Positions 4,241 to 47,226 of a stretch of DNA of 64,000 nucleotides are shown here, piece by piece. The number at the start of each line of letters is the position of its first letter. The stretch's first letter is position 1. The notes under the pieces were generated by a model. That model saw nothing but the letters and a program-made list of their open reading frames with translations, searched no databases and had not been told where the DNA came from. The position numbers were made by a program, and so were the translations under genes. The stretch is from Pseudomonas sp. Irchel s3f7 (GTDB lineage Bacteria > Pseudomonadota > Gammaproteobacteria > Pseudomonadales > Pseudomonadaceae): assembly GCF_900187615.1 (NCBI RefSeq), contig NZ_FYDO01000015.1:62001-126000 (forward strand). The letters are read 5' to 3'.

Positions 4241-4436
4241 CGTGGCGTCTCCTGGCGGGCACTCAATTGTCCGCAGCTTTTATAGAGATCAATCTTCGAG
4301 GGAGCCTTCCAGTTCCCCTGATCGAAAATCGTGTCACCACTGGTTATAGAGCATTTTCCTGATCTGTCAGGCTTTTACTCTCGTTTGGCGCGGATTGCCG
4401 ACAGACGCTTGATTCAAATCAACGAAGCCGTGCCGA

Positions 4437-4505
4437 TCAGGCGTGCCCTAGCGCAATGGCAAAAGACACCACGATCATGCAGGCGAAAGCGAAATTGAGA
4501 TTCAT
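4437..4505 (-). CDS. Putative 22-residue hydrophobic peptide upstream of speC
   Basis: A short open frame starts at ATG 4505 and stops with TGA at 4437. It encodes a peptide beginning MNLNFAFACMIVV and ending AIALGHA, which could form one membrane segment. It lies about 200 bases upstream of speC on the same strand. The ribosome site is weak (GGAACC). The rest of 4241-4776 holds no larger gene, only AT-richer promoter-like DNA and REP sequence. It could be a membrane micropeptide, a leader peptide or chance. It does not resemble the E. coli SpeFL leader. Confidence 0.3.
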   Translation of the reverse strand: MNLNFAFACMIVVSFAIALGHA

Positions 4506-16465: not shown

Positions 16466-16882
16466 CTATTTGAGCAACCGAGTGTCCAGCCCAAAGCGCT
16501 CCTGCGAAACAAGCTTGAAATGATTCGCGGCCAGATCACAACTCACCAGCAGGTTCCACGAACGGCGTGTAACCGCAGACGGAATGAGCCAGTTTGGGTT
16601 TGGCACATCTTCGGGTTGAACAACTTTTATGAAATTCGAATCCATTACTTCGAAACATGTCTGCACATGAGGGACGCTATCCAGCGTACCGAAGCCGGTG
16701 TGGGTGGCCACTTCCAGAATGGCAGTCGCCGGGTCGGCCGAAGCGTAAATTACCCGGCGGCCGGGAGGATTCCATCGGCCCCCGGATTGTTGTGCGCCTA
16801 TGCCACTGCTCCATGTGTCCTTGAAGACTTCACGGTCAAGGCGCCAAGCGTGCCAAGTCCCATCCCAGGGCAAAGGATTCAT
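16466..16882 (-). CDS. RES-domain toxin of a RES/Xre toxin-antitoxin pair
   Basis: 138 residues. The RES family signature residues are visible: Arg14 in AWRL, the GGRWNPPG block at 34-41, VIYAS at 44-48 and Glu57 in ILEVAT. RES toxins degrade NAD+ and stop growth. The ATG overlaps the antitoxin stop by 4 bases (ATGA), the usual coupled arrangement with the antitoxin first. A second in-frame start is not needed. The toxin looks intact. Confidence 0.88.
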   Translation of the reverse strand: MNPLPWDGTWHAWRLDREVFKDTWSSGIGAQQSGGRWNPPGRRVIYASADPATAILEVATHTGFGTLDSVPHVQTCFEVMDSNFIKVVQPEDVPNPNWLIPSAVTRRSWNLLVSCDLAANHFKLVSQERFGLDTRLLK

Positions 16883-17292
16883 TGATAAACCCCGTGTTCA
16901 ATCCGGGTCAAATAGTCGTCTACCACCTGGAAGCCCAGTGGGTTGTCGATCAATTCCAGTGGCGTATGCCCCTCCAGGTACTTGCACGGTTTCTGCAGCC
17001 AGTTCTCAGCCAACTGTAGATTGCCAAACACATTGGTGGCGTGCTCCAGCGATTGAGCATATTGATAGGCGATTGTGCTTTGTTGCTGGTTCAGTCGCAC
17101 CGGTTCTGTCTCCTTTGCCAAGCGTTGTACTGTCCTGACGGACTTCCCTGTGATGCGCTCGACAAGGCCGTGCCCCATGTACAGTTCCGAAGCAGAAAGC
17201 ATCTCCCTCACGTCGCTCAGATCGAAGCCTTCTTGCGTGTATTTGATGATCAACATGCGCGTGTCACCCTTCACCAGCACTAGGCTAGCCAA
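16879..17292 (-). CDS. Xre/MbcA/ParS-type antitoxin (DUF2384 family)
   Basis: 137 residues ending in a typical MbcA/ParS/Xre toxin-binding domain: AQSLEHATNVFGNLQLAENWL and the GHTPLELIDNPLGFQVVDDYL block. The N-terminal half (YMGHGLVERITGKSVRTVQRLAK) is the likely Xre-like DNA-binding part. It neutralises the RES toxin and probably represses its own promoter. The best start is either TTG 17292, with AGGAACGA before it, or ATG 17256. Confidence 0.86.
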   Translation of the reverse strand: MASLVLVKGDTRMLIIKYTQEGFDLSDVREMLSASELYMGHGLVERITGKSVRTVQRLAKETEPVRLNQQQSTIAYQYAQSLEHATNVFGNLQLAENWLQKPCKYLEGHTPLELIDNPLGFQVVDDYLTRIEHGVYQ

Positions 17293-17638
17293 TCGTTCCT
17301 ACCTGCCTGGAACAGCTACATTAACCTTCGAACTTCCGACGGCAAACCCTAAAAACATGTCGGAAATTTCCCGTGCTTTCATCGCTTTTTAAACGCCAAA
17401 AGGGCAGTCCAGTCGGGTGTATAAGCGTTGGCGTTTATTTGCCGTCAGCGTTACTTCATGAAAGCTACAGCGCCTTGCGTCATTGCCTACAGGTACGCCA
17501 GAATCCGCCGGCTTGTGCGCCTGGTGCCCGGGTTTTATCGTTTGCTCGCCGCTGTAAAAAAACAGCGATCGGGTTTGGTAGACCCGTAGCATTGGCGCAT
17601 AGCGTCACCTTTAATCGTCCTTTTTTGGACGGAATTTT

Positions 17639-17728
17639 ATGGTGGCCATGCGCAGGGCTCCTCCGGGGGCGCCGGTTCCAATGCCCGGTCTACCAACCTT
17701 CGTATGGTCGCCACCCTTCGTTTGGTAG
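17639..17728 (+). CDS. Possible 29-residue proline-rich leader peptide upstream of the DUF6124 gene
   Basis: The 480-base stretch 17293-17772 has no ordinary gene. Within it, ATG 17639 preceded by GGACGGAATTTT opens a short frame that stops at TAG 17726-17728, 44 bases before the DUF6124 start. The peptide starts MVAMRRAPPGAPVPMPGLP and ends SPPFVW. The DNA over its 3' end can fold (CTACCAA at about 17690 with TTGGTAG at about 17722). A second hairpin-like palindrome, CGCTGT-A-run-ACAGCG, lies near 17550-17568. Translation of proline-rich codons next to a folding segment suggests an attenuator-like leader, but this is inference. Confidence 0.35.
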   Translation: MVAMRRAPPGAPVPMPGLPTFVWSPPFVW

Positions 17729-17772: not shown

Positions 17773-18144
17773 ATGTTCAAACCAACACCGAATCCCGCGG
17801 ACGCAGATCCGACATCGCAATCCGAAAACCCCGATCAAAAGCAATACGACGAGGACGTCAAGCGCGCCCTGGAGTTCTACTTCAATCCTGCCGCCCACGC
17901 CGCGTTCATCAAAGCCACACCCAGACGACTCGACGATATGTTCATCGTCAACCCGCAAGTCGATATGGAAACCCTGCTCGGTCATGCTTGCGAGTCACTG
18001 GCATCGGCCAATGTCATGGCCATGGATCTGGCGGATCATCTGGAGGGGACCAGTCGCAACTCACTGCTGGGCATTGCCCAGGTCATCATGCTCGGCGAAC
18101 TGGCGGTGAACCGGGCGCTGGATCAACTCGAACCAACGAACTAA
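17773..18144 (+). CDS. DUF6124-like small acidic protein, function unknown
   Basis: 123-residue soluble acidic protein with no signal peptide or membrane segment. A low-complexity N-terminus (TPNPADADPTSQSENPDQ) precedes a helical region, RALEFYFNPAAH through LLGHACESLASANVMAMDLADHL, and ends IMLGELAVNRALDQLEPTN. The pattern fits a Pseudomonas-restricted family I recall as DUF6124, often small genes of unknown role. A good GGAG ribosome site precedes ATG 17773. A long inverted repeat follows the gene. Confidence 0.7.
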   Translation: MFKPTPNPADADPTSQSENPDQKQYDEDVKRALEFYFNPAAHAAFIKATPRRLDDMFIVNPQVDMETLLGHACESLASANVMAMDLADHLEGTSRNSLLGIAQVIMLGELAVNRALDQLEPTN

Positions 18145-35213: not shown

Positions 35214-35238
35214 CCTCCACCAGACATACACAAAACCC

Positions 35239-35877
35239 TGTAGGAGCGGGCTTGCCCGCGATGACGGCGTGTCAGTCGACATCCATTTTGAATGGTCTAC
35301 CGCTTTCGCGAGCAAGCTTGCTCCTACAGGGGCATGTTGGTCATGGGCTGAATGTGTGGTCCACGCCGATCAACTGTAGGAGCGGGCTTGCCCGCGATGA
35401 CGGCGTGTCAGTCGACATCCATTTTGAATGGTCTACCGCTTTCGCGAGCAAGCTTGCTCCTACAGGGGCATGGTGGTCATGGGCTGGATGTGTGGTCCAC
35501 GCCGATCAACTGTAGGAGCGGGCTTGCCCGCGATGACGGCGTGTCAGCCAACACCCATTTTGAATGGTCTACCGCTATCGCGAGCAAGCTTGCTCCTACG
35601 GGGGCATGTTGGTCATGGGCTGAATGTGTGGTCCACGTCGATCAAATGTAGGAGCGGGCTTGCCCGCGATGGCGGAGTGTCAGTCGACATTCATTTTGAA
35701 TGGTCTATCGCTATCGCGAGCAAGCTTGCTCCTACGGGGAATGTTGGTCATGGGCTGAATGTGTGGTCCACGTCGATCAAATGTAGGAGCGGGCTTGCCC
35801 GCGATGACGGCGTGTCAATCGACATACATTTTGAATGGTCTACCGCTATCGCGAGCAAGCTCGCTCCTACAGGGATT
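35239..35877. repeat. Tandem array of five REP-pair (BIME) units, 135-136 bp period
   Basis: Units begin TGTAGGAGCGGGCTTGCCCG at 35239, 35375, 35511, 35647 and 35782, giving periods of 136, 136, 136 and 135. Each unit holds a forward REP, a spacer (GTGTCAGTCGACATCCA..., then TTTTGAATGGTCTACCGC), an inverted REP ending TTGCTCCTACAGG, and a linker with GGTCATGGGCTGAATGTGTGG. Copies differ by only a few bases. The array fills the RidA-RlhA gap 35214-35987. No gene is inside it. Confidence 0.95.
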
Positions 35878-40935: not shown

Positions 40936-40952
40936 TGCTCCATCGTGGTGCT
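40936..40952 (+). promoter_or_regulatory. Putative NtrC-binding site
   Basis: TGCTCCATCGTGGTGCT fits the NtrC dyad TGCACCA-N4-GGTGCA with two mismatches in the half sites. It lies about 115 bases upstream of the sigma-54 promoter, a usual enhancer distance. Assignment is by eye. Confidence 0.6.
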
Positions 40953-41051: not shown

Positions 41052-41067
41052 TGGCACGCACATTGCT
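41052..41067 (+). promoter_or_regulatory. Sigma-54 (RpoN) promoter, -24/-12 type
   Basis: TGGCACGCACATTGCT matches the consensus TGGCAC-N5-TTGCW exactly. The -12 GC at 41065-41066 predicts transcription start near 41078, leaving a leader of about 105 bases that contains the two riboswitch hairpins before ATG 41183. Confidence 0.8.
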
Positions 41068-41100: not shown

Positions 41101-41151
41101 TCCGGGACGACCCGGAGGCCTAGCGGCTCTGCGATATCTGGACGACCAGGT
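41101..41151 (+). promoter_or_regulatory. Guanidine-II (mini-ykkC) riboswitch candidate
   Basis: Two hairpins with identical ACGA tetraloops: TCCGGG-ACGA-CCCGGA (41101-41116, perfect 6-bp stem) and ATCTGG-ACGA-CCAGGT (41136-41151, one G-U pair), joined by a 19-base linker. Paired stem-loops with ACGR loops and C-G closing pairs are the defining feature of the mini-ykkC class, which binds free guanidine and usually exposes the ribosome site. A strong AGGAGG lies 20 bases downstream at 41171-41176. The predicted sigma-54 start places both hairpins in the transcript. Confidence 0.85.
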
Positions 41152-41182
41152 GACATTTTGACTAATCATCAGGAGGTTACTT

Positions 41183-42232
41183 ATGGCGCCCACGCCTCGA
41201 ACTACCCCTCATTCAGCGTTCGAACACCTGCCCCTCGTGGACATTGGCGGACTGTTTTCCGACTGCGCAGCCGATCGCATCCAAGCCGCCGCAGCGTTGG
41301 GGAACGCCGCGCAGCAGGCAGGTTTCCTCTATGTGACCGGGCACGGTATCGATCCGCAGATCATCAATCGTCTCAAGCAACGGAGCGTTGAATACTTCGC
41401 CCAGCCGGTCGAGCGCAAGATGCAGGATTACATCGGGCTTTCGAGCAATCACTGCGGGTATGTCCCGGAGGGCGAGGAGCAGTTTGTCGAGGGCAGCATC
41501 GATCACAAGGAGGCCTTCGACGTTGGCTTCGACTATGTCCTGCCAGAGGGGCAGCGCCCCATGCTGGGGGCCAATCGCTGGCCAGTGTTGCCGGGTTTCA
41601 AGCAGGACATCAAGGCTTACTACGACGCGGTGTTCAGTCTTAGCCTTGCGCTGTTTCGGGGCTTTGCGCTGGCCTTGGGTTTACCGGAAAACGCCATCAG
41701 CCAGTGGGTCAATCATCCGCCCAGTCAACTTCGATTGATCCACTATCCGTATTCAAAGGATGCACCGCAGGATCGTCCGGGCATTGGCGCGCACACCGAC
41801 TACGAATGCTTCACCATCCTGCTGCCGACTGCGCCGGGGCTTGAAGTGTTGAACGGAGCAGGGCAGTGGATCGACGTGCCGCTGGTCGAAGGTGCATTTG
41901 TGATCAATATCGGCGACATGATGGAGGTGCTGAGCAATGGCACCTACGTCGCCACGGCCCATCGGGTGCGCAAGGTCAGTGAAGAGCGTTATTCCTTCCC
42001 GATGTTCTGCGCTTGCGACTATGACACGGTCATCGAACCTATCGCGCAACTGCTCGAACCGGCAACGCCGAGCCGCTATGGGCCGGTGGTTTGCGGTGAG
42101 CATCTGTATGCACAAACCCTGCAAACCTTTCGCTATCTCAAGCAACGCATGGCGCGGGGCGAGCTGAGTTTGCCCAGTGGCGCCAAAGGCTTGTCGTCAT
42201 TCGGCTACGCCCCCATCTGCGAGGAGGTTTGA
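41183..42232 (+). CDS. 2-Oxoglutarate/Fe(II)-dependent oxygenase, isopenicillin N synthase-like
   Basis: 349 residues. The N-terminal DIOX_N domain (LPLVDIGGLF, AAQQAGFLYVTGHGID) is followed by the double-stranded beta-helix core with metal ligands His204 and Asp206 (GAHTDYECFTIL) and His260 (ATAHRV), and the 2-oxoglutarate-binding Arg269 in ERYSFPMF. All catalytic residues are present. The substrate is not evident from family. It is the first gene behind a guanidine-II riboswitch candidate, and some plant and bacterial relatives hydroxylate homoarginine-type compounds and release guanidine, so a guanidino substrate is a reasonable inference. AGGAGG ribosome site; overlaps none, next gene starts 1 base after the stop. 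Confidence 0.88.
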   Translation: MAPTPRTTPHSAFEHLPLVDIGGLFSDCAADRIQAAAALGNAAQQAGFLYVTGHGIDPQIINRLKQRSVEYFAQPVERKMQDYIGLSSNHCGYVPEGEEQFVEGSIDHKEAFDVGFDYVLPEGQRPMLGANRWPVLPGFKQDIKAYYDAVFSLSLALFRGFALALGLPENAISQWVNHPPSQLRLIHYPYSKDAPQDRPGIGAHTDYECFTILLPTAPGLEVLNGAGQWIDVPLVEGAFVINIGDMMEVLSNGTYVATAHRVRKVSEERYSFPMFCACDYDTVIEPIAQLLEPATPSRYGPVVCGEHLYAQTLQTFRYLKQRMARGELSLPSGAKGLSSFGYAPICEEV

Positions 42233-42233
42233 C

Positions 42234-43175
42234 ATGCACCTTCACGACCTTGTCGAGCAATTTGCACAACAATCACCCCACGGTGTTCCTGACTGGATGC
42301 TCGGTTTCTACAAGCGCCGGGCGATCAGTTATGCCGACGGCCTGACCGACGTGCAGACCCACGTGTGCTGGTTCCAGAGTCGCAATTTCACCATCGATCT
42401 GCGCCTGCCGCTCGAGCACCAGCAGGTCGCGGCCAAGCCCTTGTCGGCGTACAACGCGCAAGAGCTGCAAGTGCTCGCCAATTACGAAGGCTGGGAAGCC
42501 TTGTGTTCCTGGGAAGGCGAGACCCTGAGCTGGCACACGGACACGTCTTTGCAGGTGCACAATCGCTGGCCGGAGCCTGGACTGCTCAAGCGCATCGGTG
42601 ACTGCATGATCGAGTTCTCACCCAGTGACGCCTACGTCGAAGACTGGCGCTTGCAATCATCGGCACCGGGGGCATTGATCGGCTTGCGACTGCTGCACGA
42701 AAAGGAACTGGACAGCGGCCGCGTGCACCACCGTGGTGGTGGGCTGATCGTGTGCGGCGATCATGCGGCGCTGGTGCTTGGGCGTGCCGAGGTGCTTGAG
42801 TGCGGCCCCCTCGATCTGCGTGATGCGGTTGCGCGCCATGCCGATGATCTGCCATGGCTCAGCCAGGCCTTCAACTTCGAGACTTCAGTTGCCTGTGGTT
42901 CCCTCGCAGAGGGCTACAACGTGACCCTATCGACCTGCGCTGCACGCATCGGTCAGCCGCTGATCTCGCTGGAAGGCTTCGAGATTCACCCTGACGGTCA
43001 GCACGTTTTCCAGTTGCTTCAGGTCGACGGTGTTGTCCGCGAGCGCTTGTTTGTCATCGACACGCTGGAGCCGCAGGTCAGCTATTCACCCGCCACCGGC
43101 TTCACCGACCGTGCCGCGCAATGGTACGAGCGCGAATCCCCGACATTGAGCCGCTACACCCGGCCGCTCGTTTGA
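42234..43175 (+). CDS. Uncharacterised protein in the guanidine-sensing operon
   Basis: 313-residue soluble protein without signal peptide or membrane segments. I do not recognise a family. Visible features: an N-terminal stretch VPDWMLGFYKRRAISYADGLTDVQTHVCWFQSRNFTIDLRLP that looks beta-rich, many Trp and His residues, CSWEGETLSWHTD, and a middle YVEDWRLQSSAPGALIGLRLL. The start at ATG 42234 has a strong GAGGAGG site inside the end of the oxygenase gene, indicating coupled translation. Position between an oxygenase and a binding protein suggests a role with the same substrate. A lipocalin- or calycin-like barrel is possible but unproven. Confidence 0.75.
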   Translation: MHLHDLVEQFAQQSPHGVPDWMLGFYKRRAISYADGLTDVQTHVCWFQSRNFTIDLRLPLEHQQVAAKPLSAYNAQELQVLANYEGWEALCSWEGETLSWHTDTSLQVHNRWPEPGLLKRIGDCMIEFSPSDAYVEDWRLQSSAPGALIGLRLLHEKELDSGRVHHRGGGLIVCGDHAALVLGRAEVLECGPLDLRDAVARHADDLPWLSQAFNFETSVACGSLAEGYNVTLSTCAARIGQPLISLEGFEIHPDGQHVFQLLQVDGVVRERLFVIDTLEPQVSYSPATGFTDRAAQWYERESPTLSRYTRPLV

Positions 43176-43214: not shown

Positions 43215-44294
43215 ATGAAGGCATTCTCGTGCGTGTTCTACCGTTTTGCATTCGTGTTGCTGGCGTTGTCCTGTGTGGCTTTCGGTGCTTCTGCGGCCGA
43301 GAAAAAACAGTCGTTCAAGGTGGCCTGGTCGATCTATTCCGGGTGGATGCCGTGGGGCTACGCCAGCGAACACGGGATCATCGAAAAATGGGCGAAAAAG
43401 TACGGCATCCAGATTGAACTGGTGCAACTCAACGACTACATCGAGTCGATCAACCAGTACGCCGCGGGGGCATTCGATGCCTGCGGCATGACCAACATGG
43501 ATGCCTTGACCATCCCGAGCGCCAATGGCGTGGACACCACGGGGCTGATTCTGGGCGATTACTCCAACGGCAACGACGCCATCGTCCTGAAGAACGGCAA
43601 GAGCTTTGCCGACATCAAGGGCCAGCAGGTCAATCTGGTGGAGTTGTCGGTGTCCGACTACCTGATGTCCAGGGCTTTGGACATCCATGGGCTGAGCCAA
43701 CGCGATATCAAGATCATGAACACCTCCGATGCTGATGCGGTGGCTTCGTTCTCCACGTCCGGGGTGACGGCGGCAGCATTGTGGAATCCGCAATTGAGCA
43801 TGGTGATGAAGCAGTCACCGACGGCGGTTCAGGTCTTCACCTCCAAAGAAATACCGGGGGAGATCATTGACATGATGGCGGTGAACACCGAGACGCTGGC
43901 GGCCAATCCGGAACTGGGCAAGGCGTTGGTCGGTGCGTGGTTCGAGACCTTGCAATTGATGAGCGGCGACGACGGGCAGGCCATCGCCGCACGTACTTCG
44001 ATGGCCGAGCGCTCGGGTACCGACCTTAAAGGCTACGAGGAACAACTCACGCAAACCATGTTGTTTTATACGCCGGGCACCGCGTTCGAGTTCGCCAACT
44101 CCGACGCCATCCGCCATACCATGGACAAGGTGCGCACCTTCTCCTTTGCCAAAGGCTTGCTGGGCCAGGCCGCCACCAGCGCCGATGCGGTGGGCATGCA
44201 GTTTGCCGACGGCTCTACCCTTGGTGATAAGAACAACATCAAGCTGCGCTTCGATAGCCGCTTCGTGAACATGGCGGTGGCCAACCAGCTCTGA
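43215..44294 (+). CDS. ABC transporter substrate-binding protein, urea/guanidine-carboxylase-associated type
   Basis: 359 residues with a Sec signal peptide ([21 protein letters not shown]) and a NitT/TauT-like binding fold: [77 protein letters not shown] and a late [16 protein letters not shown]. It resembles the periplasmic component found near urea (guanidine) carboxylase genes, as I recall that family. No permease or ATPase gene follows: the operon ends at a truncated DoxX gene 24 bases on. It may work with a transporter encoded elsewhere, or its partners may have been lost. Confidence 0.85.
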
Positions 44295-44317
44295 GCGAAG
44301 GCGACCAAGGGGGTGCA

Positions 44318-44554
44318 GATCAGTTCGGCCCACATCGACAGCTCCCAGTTCAGTGTTGCCGAGACGTGGTTGAACGGAAACGGGAAGCGCTCCTGAATGT
44401 CGGCGAACCAGTTCTGGCCGTTGAGCTTCTCCAGGCCCGACTCGAAGAATTCCCAGGCGAGGAACACCCGCAAGGCCAGCGGCGCAATCCAGTCGCCGGC
44501 ACGGTCCAGGTTCAGGTGCAGGCCTTTGACGGCCGAGGAGATTGAGGTGTTCAT
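44318..44554 (-). pseudogene. Truncated DoxX-family membrane protein gene
   Basis: From ATG 44554, with a good AAGGGGACC ribosome site, 79 codons read as a DoxX N-terminal part: [44 protein letters not shown]. Intact relatives continue for 50-100 residues with further membrane helices. Here family similarity stops at AELI, 24 bases from the end of the convergent binding-protein gene, and the frame then runs antisense into it. The gene kept its start and lost its 3' end, marking a recombination or deletion junction. Confidence 0.7.
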
Positions 44555-44868: not shown

Positions 44869-46371
44869 ATGTCTCTTGCGCTCGAACGTCTAGTCGCTGG
44901 CACGCCGATCCCTTTCGCCGGTAACCGTGTCACGGTTGTCAGCCCCGAACTGGCAGAACGCTTCCAGCCCGGTGATCACCTGCTGGTGGAGCAGGTCAGC
45001 GGTGAACTGTTGCTGATTCCGGTGGTGGACCAGCGAGCAGCAGCGGTCGCGATCGAACGTGCTGAAGCGGCATTCACGGCAATGTCCGCCGTTTCTGATC
45101 AGGCGATCAGCGCATTTTTCGATTTGTTTGCCCAGCGCCTGGAAACCCCTGAGTGCTGGGCCTTGATCGAGGCCGCGAACCTGGCCGACATCGAGCGGGC
45201 CAAGGCGCGCGGTCGTTCGACCACACGCCTCTTGGCCGATGAGCGCATGCGTCGCGACATGATTGCCGGGCTGCGCGCCTGGCGCGATGCTTCGGCCATG
45301 CGCGGCAAAGTGGTCAGTTGCGTCGAGCACGACGGCTGGAAGGTCGAGCAAGTGGTTTCGCCGCTGGGCATCGTCGCGTTTGTCTTCGAAGGTCGACCGA
45401 ACGTTTTCGCCGACGCCGCCGGCGTATTGCGCACCGGCAACACTGCCGTTTTGCGCATTGGCAGCGATGCGTTGGGCACTGCTCAGGCAATCGTCAGTCA
45501 CGCACTGAATCCAGCGTTGGCCGACGCCGGTTTGCCCAATGGCGCGGTGTCGTTGGTGGAAAGCGTCAATCATGCCGCCGGTTGGGCGATGTTCGCCGAC
45601 CGGCGCCTGTCGCTGGCCGTGGCCCGTGGTTCGGGCCGCGCAGTCAGTCAGTTGGGCAGCATCGCGCAGCAGGCAGGCACCGCTGTCAGCCTGCACGGCA
45701 CCGGTGGCGCCTGGCTGGTCGCCCATGCAGATGCGGATGCCCAGCGCTTCGCCAGCGTGGTACGCAACTCCCTGGACCGCAAAGTCTGCAACACCCTGAA
45801 CGTGTGCCTGATTCACCGTGATCGTGCTGCAGAGCTGGTCCCGCTGTTTCTCGATGCCCTGCAACAGGCAGGCAAGGCGCGGGGGCAGGGCTGCAAGTTG
45901 CACATCGTCGAGGGCAGCGAGGCGTACTTGCCGAGCGACTGGCAAGCGGCAACGGTGCAGGTGTATCGCGCCGAAGGCTACCAGACCGAAGCATTGGCCG
46001 AACCGCTGCCCGAAGATCAACTGGGGCGCGAGTGGGAATGGGAAGAAACCCCGGAAGTCAGCCTGAAAATCGTCGATGACCTGGACAGCGCCATCGCCTT
46101 GTTCAACCGCTACAGCCCGCAATTCACGGTGTCGCTCATCAGCGAAAGTGCCGAGGCTCAGGACCGTTTCTACAACGCGGTCAACGCGCCTTTTGTCGGC
46201 AACGGCATCACCCGCTGGGTTGACGGTCAGTACGCGCTGAACAAACCGGAACTGGGTCTTTCGAACTGGGAAAGCGGACGACTGTTTGCCCGCAGCGCGA
46301 TTCTCTCGGGCGATGGCGTGTTCACCATCCGTAGCCGCATGACCCAGGTCGACCTGGGCGTCAAACGCTGA
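44869..46371 (+). CDS. Glutamate-5-semialdehyde dehydrogenase-like (ProA-like) aldehyde dehydrogenase
   Basis: 500 residues, about 80 longer than ProA. ProA-like blocks: VVSPLGIVAFVFEGRPNVFADAAGVLRTGNTAVLRIGSDAL, and the catalytic cysteine in LDRKVCNTLNVCLI. An N-terminal extension (ERLVAGTPIPFAGNRVTVVSPELAERFQPGDHLLVEQ) is not found in housekeeping ProA. The middle AVSLHGTGGAWLVA and the C-terminal FNRYSPQFTVSLISES fit the ProA fold. It may reduce a gamma-glutamyl or similar acyl phosphate, but no kinase partner is adjacent and the substrate is unknown. It stands alone. Confidence 0.8.
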   Translation: MSLALERLVAGTPIPFAGNRVTVVSPELAERFQPGDHLLVEQVSGELLLIPVVDQRAAAVAIERAEAAFTAMSAVSDQAISAFFDLFAQRLETPECWALIEAANLADIERAKARGRSTTRLLADERMRRDMIAGLRAWRDASAMRGKVVSCVEHDGWKVEQVVSPLGIVAFVFEGRPNVFADAAGVLRTGNTAVLRIGSDALGTAQAIVSHALNPALADAGLPNGAVSLVESVNHAAGWAMFADRRLSLAVARGSGRAVSQLGSIAQQAGTAVSLHGTGGAWLVAHADADAQRFASVVRNSLDRKVCNTLNVCLIHRDRAAELVPLFLDALQQAGKARGQGCKLHIVEGSEAYLPSDWQAATVQVYRAEGYQTEALAEPLPEDQLGREWEWEETPEVSLKIVDDLDSAIALFNRYSPQFTVSLISESAEAQDRFYNAVNAPFVGNGITRWVDGQYALNKPELGLSNWESGRLFARSAILSGDGVFTIRSRMTQVDLGVKR

Positions 46372-46630: not shown

Positions 46631-47173
46631 TGGGGAGCTGGCTTGCCAGCGATGAGGTCCACGAGATTGATGCAAAATTCAAAGCCGCCTTCGCCAGCAA
46701 GCCGGCTCCTACAGGGAATGTGGCGATCACAAAATCTTGCTCTTCGTAGGAGCTGGCTTGCCAGCGATGAGGTCCACGAGATTGACGCAAAATTCAAGGC
46801 CGCCTTCGCCAGCAAGCCGGCTCCTGCAGGGAATGTGGCGATCACAAAATCTTGCCCTTCGTAGGAGCTGGCTTGCCAGCGAAGAGGCCCGCGAGATTGA
46901 CGCAAAATTCAAAGCAGCCTTCGCCAGCAAGCCGGCTCCTACAGGGAATGTGGCGATCACAAAATCTTGCTCTTCGTAGGAGCTGGCTTGCCAGCGAAGA
47001 GGCCCGCGAGATTGTTGCAAAATTAAAGGCCGCCTTCGCCAGCAAGCCGGCTCCTACAGGGAATGTGGCGATCACAAAATCTTGCTCTTCGTAGGAGCTG
47101 GCTTGCCAGCGAAGAGGCCCGCGAGATTGACGCAAAATTCAAGGCCGCCTTCGCCAGCAAGCCGGTTCCTACA
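46631..47173. repeat. Tandem array of five REP-pair units, exact 115-bp period
   Basis: GGAGCTGGCTTGCCAGCG recurs at intervals of exactly 115 bases (reference base at 46636, 46751, 46866, 46981, 47096). Each unit contains this REP, a spacer (GCGAGATTGACGCAAAATTC...), the inverted REP GCCAGCAAGCCGGCTCCTAC, and a linker GGGAATGTGGCGATCACAAAATCTTG. REP class and spacer differ from the array at 35239. Copies vary at few positions. It abuts the carbonic anhydrase remnant and fills 46629-47180. Confidence 0.95.
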
Positions 47174-47189
47174 AGGACACGCAAGCATT

Positions 47190-47226
47190 AAAAAGGGCCT
47201 GCTCTTTATGGGAGCAGGCCCTTTTT
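47190..47226 (-). terminator. Intrinsic terminator of the 47243-47572 gene
   Basis: AAAAAGGGCCTGCTC, loop TTTATGG, GAGCAGGCCCTTTTT: a 10-bp GC-rich stem flanked by A- and T-runs, so it works in either direction. It lies 17 bases beyond the stop of the minus-strand gene. Confidence 0.9.

Follow-up and report, generated by a model that had tools for sequence, protein, structure and literature searches.

The short leader RNA ahead of a 2-oxoglutarate (2OG)-dependent oxygenase gene of Pseudomonas sp. Irchel s3f7 is very likely a translational ON riboswitch of guanidine-II type, placed before an operon for the uptake and demethylation of methylguanidine. Judged by homology, the operon consists of mgdH, mgdL and a gene for a substrate-binding protein (SBP), and very probably strips the methyl group from methylguanidine for nitrogen use. 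Demethylation by MgdH and MgdL under guanidine-riboswitch control is already published: according to Sinn et al. (October 2025; PMC12508155), the 2OG oxygenase MgdH of Vreelandella boliviensis hydroxylates methylguanidine, MgdL, a hypothetical protein, splits N-(hydroxymethyl)guanidine and requires D49 and R51, and the guanidine-II riboswitch of the operon has similar affinities for guanidine and methylguanidine. New are the expression platform and the finding that mgdHL forms separate operons in Pseudomonas and in other genera, with a sub-threshold guanidine-II variant of their own. Within the accessible portions of the open-licence literature, including PMC12508155, PMC12186494, PMC7266159 and PMC11647477, there was no mgdH in Pseudomonas, no stand-alone mgdHL operon and no sub-threshold guanidine-II group before mgdH.

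Sequence and family assignment of the element

The features of the leader and operon, with positions in the window (the whole 64,000-nucleotide stretch of DNA that was analysed), are as follows.

40936..40952, + strand: predicted NtrC-type enhancer-like site, 116 bases upstream of the sigma-54-like promoter, two mismatches
41052..41066, + strand: predicted sigma-54-type -24/-12 promoter, TGGCACGCACATTGC, found by pattern match
41101..41116, + strand: hairpin 1 (P1) of the guanidine-II-type aptamer, TCCGGG-ACGA-CCCGGA, ACGA loop, read directly
41117..41135, + strand: linker between the hairpins, 19 nt, read directly
41136..41151, + strand: hairpin 2 (P2), ATCTGG-ACGA-CCAGGT, ACGA loop, CUGG/CCAG core nearly invariant, outer pairs covarying
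41150..41180, + strand: predicted hairpin sequestering the Shine-Dalgarno (SD) sequence, 41150-41154 with 41176-41180 and 41156-41161 with 41169-41174
41171..41176, + strand: SD sequence AGGAGG, read directly
41183..42232, + strand: mgdH-like 2OG/Fe(II) oxygenase gene (H204, D206, H260), by homology to gca-operon MgdH
42234..43175, + strand: candidate mgdL-like N-(hydroxymethyl)guanidine lyase gene, 313 aa, D55/R57 aligning with the catalytic D49/R51
43215..44294, + strand: ABC SBP gene, TIGR03427 (ABC_peri_uca), with no permease or ATPase genes beside it

Direct reading bears out the first-pass annotation in that two stem-loops with identical ACGA tetraloops lie 19 bases apart and stand before AGGAGG; the distance from hairpin 2 to AGGAGG is 19 bases instead of the 20 claimed, and the ATG follows at 41183. 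Both copies of the core CNGGACGACCNG that the 64-kb window contains lie within the element, while shuffled windows held a mean of 0.21 copies and reached two or more in 2 of 100 shuffles.

At a lax threshold the best-matching Rfam family was Guanidine-II (RF01068; 41099-41150, 23.4 bits, E 0.0079 after correction for 4227 families over 301 nt), the family that had been named from the letters. The score lies below the RF01068 gathering score of 32 bits, and a search of the whole window at gathering did not list the element, which is for this reason called here a guanidine-II-type variant rather than a curated member of the family. In the search of the whole genome the match had an E of 0.0376, and at E up to 1 RF01068 gave matches in seven of 14 control genomes, above the cut-off in two only; given such sub-cut-off matches, a lone RF01068 match is weak, and the case rests on comparison. 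The folding stability of the isolated 101-nt leader is not unusual (z -1.25). Two other guanidine-II elements of the same genome exceed the cut-off, at 45 and 43.8 bits. Matches to the FourU thermosensor (20.1 bits against a cut-off of 60) and to ribosomal leaders near the element were weak, far under their own cut-offs, and were rejected.

The mini-ykkC (guanidine-II) reading of the first-pass annotation stands as regards architecture, loop and closing pairs, linker, place, conservation, covariation and best Rfam match, though not as regards textbook membership. Both window loops are ACGA, with ACGR in 35/35 sequences of an alignment of relatives (A3) and GG/CC closing pairs, and the 19-nt linker falls within the 7-40 nt given for guanidine-II RNAs in PMC7544219. 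The guanidine-II pocket, as described in PMC5486947, comprises a G6-C11 floor, A7, C8, G9 and a purine at position 10; the ligand sits on loop G9 over the G6-C11 pair, and an opening admits methylguanidine. The bases of this site are retained as G-ACGA-C in both window hairpins, and the pocket bases are invariant in A3 except for the fourth loop base, which is A or G.

Conservation of the element before mgdH

Homologues of the second gene of the operon (gene 2, 42234-43175) were found in 13 of 149 genomes of the genus and 18 of 390 of the order, weak ones counted. A collection of named records provided 66 loci, a few of them from MAGs titled Burkholderiales or Gallionellales and the majority from Pseudomonas and other Gammaproteobacteria; separate mgdHL loci occur in records titled Pseudomonas, Gilvimarinus, Marinobacter, Haliea, Thalassolituus and others. 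An oxygenase match adjoins gene 2 in 64 of the 66 named loci (absent from L085 and L124, partial only in L104), and these 64 and the window form the set of 65 loci compared here. In 59 of the 65, mgdH is preceded by two GGACGRCC cores at a distance of 20-60 nt from each other, and five loci (L076, L079, L081, L083 and L094) have a wider spacing of 73-92 nt. Both cores thus precede mgdH in 64 of the 65 loci, L083 and L094 among them being doubtful because model R1, described below, misses the former and scores the latter at 14.5 bits; L078 is the sole locus with no element before mgdH. Linker length differs among the relatives, and in L073, L077, L110, L111, L115 and L116 longer linkers, several of them self-complementary by eye, could form an extra hairpin between the aptamer hairpins.

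In A3, which holds 35 sequences from many genera, both GGACGRCC cores are kept and the outer pairs vary. Over 12 pairs and 35 sequences 93.8% of cells are paired, and the combined pairing and covariation score was unmatched in 500 shuffles, while the number of pairs changed on both sides (four) was equalled by 224 of the 500 and so does not rise above them. For hairpin 2, likewise, the covariation was reached in 0/500 shuffles and the two-sided-change count in 269.

The elements used to build R1, 35 of 49 distinct ones with that of the window among them, owe their own scores to that construction. In a scan of 390 genomes R1 gave 26 matches with E no higher than 0.01. Every one of the 12 strongest (45-62 bits) precedes mgdH. 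Of the 13 genomes in which gene 2 has a strong match (E below 1e-40), 12 contain these matches, the exception, G457, having a wide element scored at 24.4 bits. The other 14 matches reach 33 bits or less; eight are guanidine-II elements above the Rfam cut-off and six are unlisted by Rfam, and the downstream ORFs, inspected by eye at eight of the 14, include three carboxylase-like and one SMR-like, with four unassigned. Since the 12 strong-match genomes overlap the loci behind R1, and the scan scored only the 13 best first-look candidates per genome under strict filters, it tests specificity only partly. Among 12 mgdH leaders compared with RF01068, eight scored 20.3-26.5 bits against the cut-off of 32 and four (L170-L173) were unreported. 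Because the strong R1 matches all precede mgdH and the mgdH leaders score low against RF01068, the mgdH-leader group and the ordinary guanidine-II group appear to be separate.

Like RF01068, the variant has two ACGR stem-loops closed by GG/CC, a variable linker, a place beside the ribosome-binding site and guanidine-metabolism genes downstream; it differs in a hairpin 2 stem nearly fixed as CUGG/CCAG and in its association with mgdH, whereas guanidine-II elements above the cut-off here stand before a carboxylase gene or before ORFs that look SMR-like or carboxylase-like by eye. The support for the putative riboswitch is comparative: it occupies the same place before the same gene in relatives, with covarying stems.

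Expression platform and promoter

An SD/anti-SD switch is the mechanism proposed for the guanidine-II class in PMC7544219, and the leader contains a candidate for it. The predicted SD stem and hairpin 2 have positions 41150-41151 in common, and 41149 too by a possible G-U pair. In an alignment of 40 leaders from hairpin 2 to the start codon, 41150-41154 pair with 41176-41180, directly 3' of the SD, with two-sided changes at 5/5 pairs (18 cells, 0/500 shuffles) and a covariation of 0.409 versus 0.238 in shuffles, which ignore kinship among the sequences; sliding the partner strand reduces every measure. Alignment columns 19-20 pair within hairpin 2 as well as within the SD stem, and column 18, in the invariant hairpin 2 core, is able to pair behind the SD in 35/37. 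A register-free test on 37 distinct leaders gave a duplex energy of -8.13 for the native sequences versus -5.62 (sd 0.34) for permuted ones, a value reached in 0/10000 permutations, which likewise disregard kinship; L104, L123 and L083 have poor SD duplexes. Folded in silico from the predicted sigma-54 start, without ligand and without loop kissing, the leaders of all 12 loci in the window clade form the SD stem (p at least 0.91) and hairpin 1 (p at least 0.80) and leave hairpin 2 mostly open (p 0.08-0.33). This modelled leader with its SD hidden provides the putative switch with a concrete OFF state. An alternative stem blocking hairpin 1, seen early on, was gone once folding began at the predicted sigma-54 start.

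The sequence TGGCACGCACATTGC at 41052 fits the sigma-54 consensus, and 40936..40952 resembles, with two mismatches, that of NtrC. The sigma-54 pattern lies 84-88 bases before hairpin 2 in 12/12 loci of the window clade (L060-L070 and the window) and is present in 15 of 67 loci overall, mostly close relatives of the window, against a background of 0.005 per 300 nt. The best NtrC-like site is found at -104 to -116 in all 12 and has three mismatches or fewer in ten (L064 has four, L069 five), a level also reached by 61 of 802 background stretches (each 250 nt long, taken from 13 loci with the sites themselves left in). As the window-clade loci are closely related, the conservation of promoter and NtrC-like site is modest evidence; the two features suggest that transcription in this clade may also require nitrogen limitation.

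The oxygenase

The first gene encodes a protein with the oxygenase domains PF03171 (75.7 bits) and PF14226 (72.5 bits) and the HxD...H facial triad (H204, D206, H260). In all comparisons the gca-operon homologues L136 and L044 stand in for V. boliviensis MgdH and MgdL; a search with the V. boliviensis mgdH primer gave no match in 61 genomes of one genus. By eye, L044 (genome family f36, taken to be Halomonadaceae) contains a carboxylase end, an oxygenase, a lyase and an amidase-like allophanate hydrolase, a gca-type operon. The L136 proteins start with MSQSMND and MSVSLP, and the V. boliviensis primers in PMC12508155 translate to MSQASND and MSVSLP.

The window oxygenase is 53% identical to L136 MgdH (360 bits). 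Ethylene-forming enzyme (EFE) and isopenicillin N synthase (IPNS) belong to the same fold superfamily (PF03171, PF14226), but similarity to them is lower; an IPNS or EFE identity was rejected on account of this sequence distance (39.5-67 bits for EFE), and the 'IPNS-like' label of the first-pass annotation has to be replaced by MgdH-like. Its view that an oxygenase is an unfamiliar guanidine-II target is likewise superseded, since Sinn et al. (PMC12508155) place MgdH and MgdL downstream of a guanidine-II riboswitch. Within the gene, ARAGORN calls a tRNA-Ser at 41333-41410 (- strand) that is absent from Rfam at gathering and is probably false.

In a tree of 65 oxygenases the window belongs to a clade of 26 (support 99/99) and gca-operon MgdH forms one of nine rows (100/98); a joint clade of 42 rows (99/100) holds both together with a third clade of seven from Pseudomonas. 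No paralogues that could serve as outgroup were found in the window's own genome. The branch grouping the third clade with the window clade is weak (83/15), the tree program warned of long branches, and the window enzyme is 52-56% identical to the third clade and 51-55% to gca-operon MgdH; with the third clade equally close and this branch weak, the tree alone does not fix the substrate. Six residues (Q182, T216, N252, L308, T312 and F316) are identical in 35/35 MgdL-linked oxygenases and in 0/7 of the third clade, though most other positions fixed in the MgdL-linked enzymes are also found there. These six favour, without proving, a common function of the window and gca-operon enzymes.

The third clade (L194-L200) represents MgdH-like oxygenases in 7/26 Pseudomonas genomes, with ABC-type genes nearby by eye; L195 also has a TIM-barrel gene and an arginase-family gene nearby. 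The 12-kb stretches around these genes held no MgdL-like ORF, no R1 match and no guanidine riboswitch at gathering. Among PDB chains the best match of the window oxygenase was 9ovh (E 7.6e-52), listed under the name of an ethylene/succinate-forming enzyme; other chains so named gave much weaker matches, among them 9eir (E 1.4e-17, 67 bits) and 5lsq/5mof (E 3.2e-9, 39.5 bits).

The putative lyase

The product of gene 2 has no Pfam or NCBIfam match at E 0.001 but is homologous to gca-operon MgdL, with the catalytic pair conserved. It is 26% identical to the MgdL of L044, and hhalign gave probabilities of 97.6% (L044) and 96.1% (L136), aligning D55-L-R57 with D49-L-R51; the second protein of L044 carries D49-L-R51 under the same numbering as V. 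boliviensis MgdL. Two alignments, of 13 and 28 sequences, show no change at D55 or R57. The window protein is longer, 313 aa versus 238 (L044) and 232 aa (L136). Its AF2 model (pLDDT 94) is beta-rich, with D55 and R57 in the strand 52-59, and a structure search with it returned partial lipocalin-like barrel matches only, with no PDB match at E 0.001 or better.

Other MgdL-like proteins were seen in passing. A second, more distant oxygenase/MgdL-like pair occurs in f36 genomes (L126-L130; L059, 7805-9384), in L059 between a PhyH-family dioxygenase and ABC transporter-like genes and with no R1 match; it perhaps demethylates another N-methyl compound. Distant MgdL-like proteins of Pseudomonas (L022-L028, about 28-30% identity) lack an MgdH-like neighbour; the L022 protein has no Pfam match, and L027 has a weak R1 match (4389-4437, 20.8 bits).

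The binding protein, the guanidine carboxylase operon and the surroundings

The SBP, of guanidine/urea type, scores 505.6 bits with TIGR03427, above the curated 333.9. Of the 65 loci, 31 have it after gene 2, 19 have a similar SBP in divergent orientation and 15 have neither. The operon is not a truncated one, as L060 and L049 have the same three genes and then, by eye, unrelated ones. Elsewhere in the same genome lie, in a row, a Gd-I element, an SBP, permease-like and ATPase-like genes, UAAP1, UAAP2, a Gd-II element, a urea-carboxylase-type gene and allophanate hydrolase, which is the arrangement of guanidine carboxylase operons. The marker UAAP1 (TIGR03425) is above its cut-off in 17/17 genomes with a strong gene-2 match and was found in 112/381 genomes sampled from the order for comparison. 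Since no permease was seen beside the SBP in L060 and L049, we infer that the SBP probably feeds the permease of the gca operon.

In its 2OG oxygenase and D-x-R lyase, guanidine-riboswitch-type control and link to guanidine carboxylase the system resembles MgdH/MgdL of V. boliviensis; as described in PMC12508155, however, mgdHL there lies between gca and atzF and uses the gca riboswitches, whereas here it forms a separate mgdHL-SBP operon with an element of its own.

Abutting the end of the SBP gene is a DoxX/HvfX gene remnant (about 44299-44491, - strand; the first 65 of 165 positions of NF050144, under cut-off), as though the operon had inserted into that gene or next to it. At 44869-46371 (+ strand) lies a gene for a 500-aa ProA-like protein (160.6 bits versus a cut-off of 289), perhaps a glutamate-semialdehyde dehydrogenase paralogue with another role; being outside the operon and under the ProA cut-off, it was rejected as an EFE partner (P5C). 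Farther off, the window contains a C4 antisense RNA (RF01695, 72.1 bits, 17635-17718, + strand) just ahead of a small ORF at 17773 and close to a RES toxin/Xre-MbcA-ParS antitoxin pair (16466-17292, - strand), as well as tandem arrays at 35238-35874 and 46634-47208 with units of about 136 and 115 nt, which read as repeated spurious ORFs and are likely intergenic repeats.

Discussion

The features obtained by computation (element, conservation, covariation, SD stem, homologies and genome co-occurrence) suggest a model in which the ligand, the direction of switching, the enzyme activities, the sharing of a transporter and the sigma-54 control are our proposals. Without ligand, the 3' strand of hairpin 2 would pair with the bases just behind the SD, which would then be hidden. 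Binding of guanidinium or methylguanidinium would let the two ACGA loops kiss and hold hairpin 2 closed, and the closed hairpin would take the first bases of the SD stem, so that translation of mgdH could start. MgdH would then hydroxylate the methyl group of methylguanidine, MgdL would cleave the hemiaminal into guanidine and formaldehyde, and the guanidine carboxylase operon elsewhere in the genome, under Gd-I/Gd-II control, would convert the guanidine to ammonia.

That the motif is merely a chance pair of hairpins has a negligible probability. It is short, its genome-wide E of 0.0376 refers to one family, and control genomes also hold sub-cut-off matches; chance is nevertheless contradicted by the comparative data, which place it at the same position before the same gene in nearly all loci, across several families and with covariation. 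We consider it very improbable, too, that the hairpins are what remains of a decayed guanidine-II element, or that the leader only hides the SD (for instance as a thermosensor-like or protein-bound RNA) and senses no ligand. The sub-threshold Rfam score, the weak FourU match and the unremarkable stability of the isolated leader would agree with this, but a relic is not expected to retain both loops, which all 35 aligned sequences from many genera do while their outer pairs vary, and a simple SD hairpin needs no hairpin 1.

A rival that accepts the guanidine-II-type switch has the oxygenase act on another guanidino compound, releasing guanidine, with the second gene aiding the decay of a different hemiaminal. 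Arginine or homoarginine (by C-hydroxylation, as in EFE or plant enzymes), N,N-dimethylguanidine and agmatine-like compounds are candidate substrates. The equally close third clade in other contexts, one locus of it near an arginase-family gene, suggests that homologues may differ in substrate, and the best PDB match bears the name of an ethylene/succinate-forming enzyme. Other chains of that name are far weaker matches, however, and the six residues shared by all MgdL-linked oxygenases are missing from the third clade, even if most fixed positions are common to both. The MgdL partner with its D-x-R is narrow for N-(hydroxymethyl)guanidine according to PMC12508155, and the carboxylase marker is present in every one of the genomes checked. 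Another substrate is improbable, and methylguanidine is preferred.

A tentative extension of the methylguanidine reading, itself rather unlikely, is that the mgdH leader forms a guanidine-II sub-class of its own, which evolved alongside the demethylase and, over guanidine alone, favours methylguanidine or requires both compounds. If this were true, a cell would have one guanidine-II variant controlling gca and efflux genes and a second, with another ligand, controlling mgdHL.

The findings extend the methylguanidine demethylation route from halophiles, for which PMC12508155 describes it, to Pseudomonas and several other proteobacterial genera. They show a coherent riboswitch group that falls below the curated guanidine-II cut-off, and in the competition between hairpin 2 and the SD stem they offer a clear platform for the kissing-loop switching proposed for guanidine-II RNAs. 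Two guanidine-II variants in one genome are a natural pair for asking how one small pocket might come to select different ligands, and the wider distribution of the route suggests that methylguanidine is a widespread nitrogen source.
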